From NCBI RefSeq assembly GCF_027000115.1, contig NZ_JALTON010000015.1, positions 1 through 39,460 of the forward strand: a DNA stretch of 39,460 nucleotides, given 5' to 3'. The stretch is from Thiohalobacter sp. Its GTDB lineage: Bacteria; Pseudomonadota; Gammaproteobacteria; Thiohalobacterales; Thiohalobacteraceae. Made by a program: the position numbers and the translations under genes. Below, one piece after another: positions 38,946-39,460 of this stretch (positions within the stretch are counted from its first letter, which is position 1; every line of letters starts with the position of its first letter). Under the pieces are notes generated by a model. It was not told the DNA's origin. It saw only the letters and a list, made by a program, of their open reading frames with translations, and did not search any database.

Positions 38946-38974
38946 TTGACCCGCGCCTACGGTCGCCTTATCAT
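38946..38974 (+). promoter_or_regulatory. Promoter of the tRNA-Pro gene
   Basis: TTGACC (38946-38951), exactly 17 bp, TATCAT (38969-38974): 5 of 6 matches each. A GC-rich discriminator (CTGCGCCC) follows, typical of stringently controlled stable-RNA promoters. Transcription would start near 38981, giving a leader of about 35 nt. Confidence 0.75.
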
Positions 38975-39015: not shown

Positions 39016-39092
39016 CGGGGTATAGCGCAGTCTGGTAGCGCGCCTGCTTTGGGAGCAGGATGTCGGGGGTTCGAATCCCTCTACCCCGACCA
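39016..39092 (+). tRNA. tRNA-Pro (anticodon TGG)
   Basis: A complete 77-nt tRNA with encoded CCA. Acceptor stem CGGGGTA (39016-39022) with TACCCCG (39082-39088), discriminator A, then CCA. The anticodon arm is CCTGC-TTTGGGA-GCAGG, with anticodon TGG at 39050-39052. The T-arm carries GGGTTCGAATCCC. The anticodon reads CCA and, by wobble, other proline codons. The last 18 nt recur in the tandem repeats that follow. Confidence 0.97.
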
Positions 39093-39460
39093 GTGCGAAC
39101 AGGGAGTCCGCCGCGGGCGAGTGAACCGCGCGGCGAAGGGTCGGGAAGATTCGAACCCCCGACGTATCGAAATGGCGGGTTCGACGGCCTGCGGAGCAGG
39201 CCGAACGCGGCGCAGCCGCGGCCCCGGAGGGGTGAGGGCGCAGCCCGAATCATCCCTCTACCCCGACCAGTGCGAACAGGGAGTCCGCCGCGGGCGAGTG
39301 AACCGCGCGGCGAGGGGTCGGGAAGATTCGAACCCCCCGACGTATCGAAATGGCGGGTTCGACGGCCTGCGGAGCAGGCCGAACGCGGCGCAGCCGCGGC
39401 CCCGGAGGGGTGAGGGCGCAGCCCGAATCATCCCTCTACCCCGACCAGTGCGAACAGGGA
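39075..39460. repeat. 177/178-bp tandem repeat array reusing the tRNA 3' end
   Basis: Unit 1 is 39075-39251 (177 bp), unit 2 is 39252-39429 (178 bp), and unit 3 begins at 39430 and leaves the window after 31 bp. Each begins with the last 18 nt of the tRNA (ATCCCTCTACCCCGACCA). Units 1 and 2 differ by only two changes: an A/G near 39137 and one extra C in unit 2. The rest of the unit is GC-rich and hairpin-prone (GGCCTGCGGAGCAGGCC). No promoter or credible gene is seen inside. Confidence 0.95.
39148..39163 (-). repeat. Inverted copy of the tRNA-Pro T-arm inside repeat unit 1
   Basis: GATTCGAACCCCCGAC is the exact reverse complement of tRNA positions 39062-39077 (16 of 16). Unit 2 has it at 39325-39341 with one extra C. 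In the primary transcript it could base-pair with the T-arm of the tRNA. Confidence 0.85.

Follow-up and report, generated by a model that had tools for sequence, protein, structure and literature searches.

A tandem array behind tRNA-Pro

The DNA analysed here, referred to as the window, is a stretch of 39,460 nt from Thiohalobacter sp., cut from a contig of 68,085 bp (NZ_JALTON010000015.1), and it stops on the right where a scaffold gap of 100 N begins. Next to that edge lies a tRNA-Pro gene followed by a tandem array (Table 1). TRF reported one array (39075-39460; period 178, 2.2 copies, 99% matches), and a repeat search of the window gave unit spacings of 177 and 178, the difference being one additional C where unit 2 copies the T arm in inverted form. 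The sequence-only reading had described at least two near-identical full units and the beginning of a third behind this tRNA, each opening with the last 18 nt of the gene including CCA, and this anatomy was borne out: the tRNA-Pro tail ATCCCTCTACCCCGACCA, at 39075-39092, recurs exactly at the start of units 2 and 3. The tRNA-derived parts of a unit are not the 18-nt tail copy alone, since each unit also holds an inverted T arm. Each unit opens with tail copy B (18 nt), followed by a spacer, the inverted T arm, GGGTTCGA and a module here called X (67 nt), after which comes the next B. Apart from hairpins and tRNA-derived sequence the 177-bp units contain no gene, and the open frames that cross them are read-through of the repeat.

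Table 1. Features of the tRNA-Pro locus in window coordinates.
Feature	Position	Strand	Remarks
Promoter-like site TTGACC-17-TATCAT	38946..38974	+	consensus match only
tRNA-Pro(TGG) gene	39016..39092	+	T loop TTCGAAT; ARAGORN, Rfam
Repeat unit 1	39075..39251	+	177 bp, from T-loop position to next tail copy
Closing helix P1, 5' strand GGTCGGG	39139..39145	+	predicted fold; pairs with 39262-39268 (CCCGACC, tail copy)
Inverted T-arm copy, unit 1	39148..39163	-	16/16 complementary to 39062-39077
GGGTTCGA, left border of X	39177..39184	+	direct copy of T-arm 5' half and loop
Module X, unit 1	39185..39251	+	model R2, 43.5 bits, E 4.3e-8
Parts of X, unit 1	P3 39185-39203; P4 39206-39220; P5 39220-39235; P6 39236-39246		GAACG linker between P3 and P4; right border CCCGAATC
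Repeat unit 2	39252..39429	+	178 bp
Tail copy B	39252..39269	+	exact last 18 nt of tRNA-Pro including CCA
Inverted T arm, unit 2	39325..39341	-	one extra C
Module X, unit 2	39363..39429	+	P3 39363-39381, P4 39384-39398, P5 39398-39413, P6 39414-39424; 43.5 bits, E 4.3e-8
Start of unit 3	39430..39460	+	followed by 100-N assembly gap
Second exact tail copy	39430..39447	+	last 18 nt of tRNA-Pro

Beyond the gap lie, in this order, a small piece of the array in inverted orientation, another partial unit and the genes for tRNA-Arg(TCT), tRNA-His, tRNA-Lys and tRNA-Leu, with one more unit between tRNA-Arg and tRNA-His that carries the Arg tail instead of the Pro tail. A minus-strand tRNA-Gly(GCC) called by ARAGORN is merely the inverted T arm of this tRNA-Arg unit. 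The Pro array has at least three unit starts; the inverted fragment, within contig positions 39461-39660, is probably a product of mis-scaffolding, and the array has probably been collapsed in the assembly. The promoter-like site ahead of tRNA-Pro was the sole one found as far as beyond tRNA-Leu, and no intrinsic terminator was found from tRNA-Pro to beyond tRNA-Leu, the stretch of the 100-N gap being unread.

The window units are related to the tyrT repeats of E. coli

To our knowledge, the repeats behind the E. coli tyrT gene have been known for decades without an accepted function. The RtT small RNA is about 171 nt long, and the annotated E. coli RttR has its 3' end at the repeated CCA. Like the window array, the tyrT locus consists of tandem units of about 178 bp behind a tRNA, each starting with that tRNA's own 3' end and CCA, and in both the unit includes an inverted T arm, a GGTTCGA border and the linkers GAACG, GGCCCGRAGGGYGA and GARTA. 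In E. coli K-12 tyrT the inverted T arm reads CGGGGAAGGATGAGAAG and is accompanied by GGTTCGA, with GARTA ahead of the tail copy. The two loci differ in the tRNA, which is Pro in the window, and the tail copy and inverted T arm are accordingly those of tRNA-Pro.

We used the Rfam model of RtT (RF00391; cut-off 45 bits), which includes a closing helix specific to tRNA-Tyr, and with it the Pro units scored 23.4 bits each, below the cut-off. Scores above it were obtained for the tRNA-Tyr units of the source genome (55.4 bits) and for tRNA-Gln units of its relative G001 (52.4 and 45.4 bits). On contig C49 of the source genome, group II intron signals (RF02012, RF00029) lie just behind the RtT-type units of the tRNA-Tyr cluster, before the next tRNA. 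A second covariance model, R2, was built from seven sequences, none of them a tRNA-Pro unit and two of them tRNA-Ser units of the source genome; it recovered both window units, the next match in the window having an E value of 0.17. The four-hairpin core with its conserved linkers, found by this Pro-free model, and a tail end identical to the 3' end of the host tRNA with its CCA are thus both present in the Pro units. The tandem GA in the first hairpin is absent, P3 of the Pro units, CGGCCTGCGGAGCAGGCCG, being a plain hairpin, whereas CGAGC..GCGAG surrounds the first hairpin in the E. coli, tRNA-Ser and tRNA-Gln units. Tandem GA in RtT RNA has been described with CaCoFold (PMC7657543; PMC8250186); the window units, which are known from DNA alone, differ from E. 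coli tyrT in this feature.

Since a model free of Pro units finds both window units, and the order of parts and the module are the same, we take the likeness of the Pro array to tyrT to be one of homology and not of convergence. The resemblance noted in the sequence-only reading was therefore correct and goes deeper than it had claimed, to an inverted T arm, a GGTTCGA junction and a module X common to both; its suggestion of a convergent class of repeats is not supported, given these shared parts, and the integrative element that it had named as a possible refutation fared no better (below). The shared 178-bp period, which it had thought remarkable, carries no meaning by itself, since periods run from about 114 to 217 bp.

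RtT-family RNAs adjoining tRNAs other than tRNA-Tyr, as in the window, have also been reported from Actinobacillus pleuropneumoniae, where Arrc20 and Arrc21 gave northern signals (PMC4986893). They differ in that they are reported to lie upstream of tRNA-Asn and tRNA-Lys genes, and the portions of that report which deal with them describe neither a tandem array nor a tailored tail (PMC4986893).

Module X has a conserved four-hairpin structure

Module X is about 67 nt long, comprises four hairpins and has constant borders, with GTTCGA before it and GARTM/ATCC after it (the slash marks the end of X). In the Pro units the hairpins are CGGCCTGC-GGA-GCAGGCCG, then CGCGGC-GCA-GCCGCG, which the GAACG linker overlaps, GCCCC-GGA-GGGGT and GGGC-GCA-GCCC, followed by GAATC. 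The predicted fold runs from the inverted T arm to B and is closed by GGTCGGG on CCCGACC. Across 130 distinct X sequences, 95.8% of the predicted pairs were paired, compared with 77.2% in column shuffles and 36-46% when the structure was slid along the alignment, and double changes numbered 431 against 107 and were present in 19 of the 23 pairs; these counts lean upward, as the alignment was fitted to the structure of the model and the shuffles ignore relatedness. P4 and P6 hold many pair types, such as CG, GC, TA and AT. At paired positions G.T outnumbered A.C by 38 to 13, which favours the tRNA-sense strand as the strand that folds. The nearest neighbour of an X came from another genome and another tRNA in 82 of the 130 sequences, with no clear tree signal.

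Similar units lie behind many tRNAs in dozens of genera

The search of other genomes that the sequence-only reading had proposed, for tRNA 3' ends repeated in tandem, recovered like arrays behind many tRNAs. We employed model R1, built from subsets of units with a structure supplied by hand, an alignment of all units by MAFFT having misplaced the first hairpin. R1 detected X in 61 of 276 Gammaproteobacteria, representing 56 of 216 genera (E <= 1e-4), and in 35 of 299 genomes of a phylum-wide sample, 15 of which belong to one family of another class; the three loci checked in that class lay directly behind tRNA-Gln, directly behind tRNA-Ser and beside tRNA-Ser. RF00391 alone gave matches in 65 of 370 Gammaproteobacteria (E <= 1e-3) and, among 14 control genomes, in E. 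coli only. Hosts include Escherichia, Serratia, Photorhabdus, Thioalkalivibrio, Salinisphaera, Marinobacter and Rheinheimera, and a Mariprofundus contig was among the pattern matches. In gamma-proteobacteria X lies nearly always behind a tRNA 3' end, and at least 12 kinds of tRNA genes are involved. A literature search found no published description of the repeat family as a whole.

A census of all tRNAs in the source genome and in G004 and G001, two complete genomes from its family, revealed tail repeats at Tyr, Pro, Arg, Ser and Gln genes, with periods of about 114 to 213 bp and in each case the tail of the tRNA concerned. In single-contig G004 these were Tyr (about 186 bp, two copies), Ser-GCT (184 bp, two copies) and Gln (213 bp, three copies), and in single-contig G001, Gln (158 bp, two copies); the orthologous spacer between tRNA-Pro and tRNA-Arg in G004 and G001 contained no unit. 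Like arrays are present in thousands of complete E. coli genomes, and these together with the single-contig genomes rule out a general assembly artefact. Two tRNA-Pro(GGG) loci and one tRNA-Arg(CCG) locus carry a second, distinct form: their tandem tail repeats are 114-140 bp long and have another hairpin linker, and neither X nor the GGTTCGA border is recognisable in them.

Most isolated matches to X without a tRNA lay at a contig end or behind a displaced tRNA 3' half, where an island or prophage has its border, and therefore do not prove transposition. At five loci, the tRNA 3' half ahead of the units had been severed from the 5' half, in what look like the distal ends of islands or prophages, so arrays can be carried off from their tRNA.

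Tail copies match the resident tRNA

Of the 67 first units that follow a tRNA directly, 44 carried exactly the last 18 nt of their own tRNA and 51 did so with at most 2 mismatches, whereas permuting the tRNAs left a mean of 3.3 matching copies. In an independent pattern set, 55 of the 61 units immediately following a tRNA reproduced the last 18 nt of that tRNA without a mismatch. For isoacceptors whose ends differ between genomes (304 comparisons), the copy matched its own tRNA in 172 and that of the other genome in 1, which shows that the tail copy tracks the resident gene. The inverted T arm is likewise longest against the gene it follows, the mean inverted match being 10.8 nt with the own tRNA, 7.4 nt with other tRNAs and 5.4 nt with shuffled spacers.

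Direct repeats of a tRNA 3' end are also the mark of tyrosine-recombinase islands, and the units could on that account be tandem remnants of integration at tRNA 3' ends, that is, mini-elements between att copies. The tail copies stand where attL and attR would be, and in several genomes a real island has displaced an array alongside the tRNA 3' half. The units differ from such islands in that all are short (about 178 bp in the window, about 110-220 bp overall) and geneless, with no integrase or cargo between the direct repeats. One module, moreover, stands behind many tRNAs, each time with that tRNA's tail, whereas mobile elements would arrive with an att of their own; in the comparisons above it is the resident tRNA that the copy matches, and no genuine phage record with a unit was found. 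Together with the fact that E. coli loci change only by whole tandem copies of 168 or 178 bp, this leaves the integrative element with an att site at the tRNA end, which the sequence-only reading had named as a possible refutation, unsupported, and integration remnants strike us as highly improbable.

The T loop is a common integrase target, and the tail copies are exact and end in CCA, so they might act as decoy targets that draw away the enzymes of tRNA 3' processing or, alternatively, integrases bound for the tRNA end. Such a role would leave the conserved module X and the inverted T arm unexplained, and we regard it as very unlikely.

Almost all target tRNAs share one T loop, TTCGAATC. In the census of three genomes a unit accompanied 17 of 41 tRNAs with this loop, compared with 1 of the 85 tRNAs that lack it (odds ratio 59.5, p 5e-9), counts that include one spurious tRNA call among the 41 and also repeats without a recognisable X.

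E. coli loci vary by whole units

The proK alleles of E. coli contain 0, 1 or 2 complete units in 168-bp steps, and in all of them, the zero-unit allele included, the last unit is truncated after GGTTCGACTCGA and runs into REP-like sequence. The tyrT alleles range in 178-bp steps from four units down to none. A search for an empty-site allele at both loci showed loss of whole units only; an IS4-like insertion allele met in this survey is irrelevant to that question. Steps of whole units are what recombination between tandem direct repeats yields, and such recombination can also keep the tail copies in step.

Array number thus varies freely among E. coli strains, some of which have none, as neutral tandem duplication would predict, and the gap and inverted fragment in the local assembly would suit an artefact. 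An origin of either kind, with no selected structure, seems scarcely credible in view of the compensatory base changes across 130 distinct sequences, the recurrence behind many tRNAs in dozens of genera and the presence of arrays in complete genomes.

REP and BIME elements resemble X in being short GC-rich palindromic repeats between genes, and a BIME-type attenuator cluster with similarity to rtT has been described (PMC2965389). REP differs in occurring between genes of many kinds, whereas X follows tRNA 3' ends, consists of four hairpins and keeps fixed borders within the T loop.

Interrupted tRNA copies and the mobility of X

At two tRNA-Ser loci of the source genome and at tRNA-Gln of G004, upstream copies of the whole tRNA are interrupted by X and are followed by one intact copy. 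X breaks the T loop at one exact point, after GTTCGA and before ATCC, and excision of X in silico restored the exact T loop in both the tRNA-Ser and the tRNA-Gln copies. In G029 (C1:455000-462000), three partial tRNA-Ser copies upstream of tRNA-Ser(CGA) hold X in the anticodon loop (CTCGA-X-A) and are followed by the intact tRNA-Ser gene and an ordinary downstream unit. The X modules of the three tRNA-Ser loci in the source genome are 95-96% identical, and pairs of X above 80% identity made up 10.6% of within-genome pairs at different tRNAs compared with 0.7% of pairs between genomes.

Each of these results, like the constant borders of X and the bias of units towards TTCGAATC tRNAs, would be expected if X were a selfish mobile element, geneless and about 70-80 nt in size, whose insertion sites are hairpin loops with TCGA/A, chiefly the tRNA T loop. 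Its structure would then be kept for movement, as ssDNA or RNA, and the tandem copies would be by-products that save one intact tRNA. The near-identical X modules at the three tRNA-Ser loci and the anticodon-loop X of G029 speak in particular for movement, and against the reading that we prefer (below). On the other side, no clean pair of empty and filled sites was found, the polymorphism in E. coli involving whole tandem units only, nor did any copy turn up that was not linked to a tRNA 3' end or to a displaced tRNA 3' half. The search of phage records returned one match, apparently chromosomal or mislabelled, as were most of the plasmid matches, and no genuine phage carriage was found; we know of no partner transposase. 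The interrupted tRNAs could also arise by deletion between two copies of GGTTCGA. Taken together, these observations make a mobile X possible but rather unlikely. We would give somewhat less credence to the wider proposal that X represents a new class of minimal mobile elements with no protein of their own, which enter TCGA/A loops (the T loop, in one case the anticodon loop) and are adapted anew to each tRNA by way of an inverted T-arm copy and a tail copy, with E. coli RtT as one settled descendant.

A tailored RtT array, probably within a tRNA operon

The explanation that we consider probable makes the window array a form of the E. coli tyrT RtT repeats that is tailored to tRNA-Pro, lies within a tRNA operon and is released as an RtT-like RNA. 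The array would be transcribed as part of a tRNA transcript in the order Pro, array, Arg, unit, His, Lys and Leu; transcription through it is likely because it lies between tRNA genes with one promoter-like site and no intrinsic terminator found. Each unit would fold into a closed multi-hairpin RNA in which the tail copy and its complement form the closing helix. As the unit RNA would end in CCA in the manner of a tRNA, enzymes that trim tRNA 3' ends could release a small RNA like RtT, and recombination between the direct repeats may keep the tail copies identical to the tRNA.

A small RNA from the array is plausible by analogy, because RttR ends at the repeated CCA and two RtT-family RNAs of Actinobacillus were seen on northern blots (PMC4986893). 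That the released RNA might act in tRNA maturation or in a starvation response is a guess by analogy with the E. coli literature. A hairpin resembling an intrinsic terminator stands between the tRNA and the unit at 31 of the 67 loci, which means that strong co-transcription with the tRNA cannot hold for many units and argues against a purely RNA-based account.

The tyrT repeats themselves were already known, though poorly understood, and the window array is a real variant of them, tailored to its tRNA. The results recast the RtT repeats from an oddity of a single operon into a recurrent, structured, tRNA-tailored family in dozens of genera, with a rule for its targets (T loop TTCGAATC), compensatory changes, variable copy number within E. 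coli and two instructive exceptions, the interrupted tRNA copies and the anticodon-loop insertion. Their value lies less in the single array of the window than in this rule across genomes. The old question of what the tyrT repeats do can now be tested in laboratory E. coli.

The family also calls for a correction in annotation, RtT not being specific to the tyrT transcript and being a source of spurious tRNA and protein calls. The proK locus of K-12 MG1655 has one unit, which is unannotated in NC_000913 (NC_000913.3), and in other E. coli records the proK unit is labelled as coming from the tyrT transcript.
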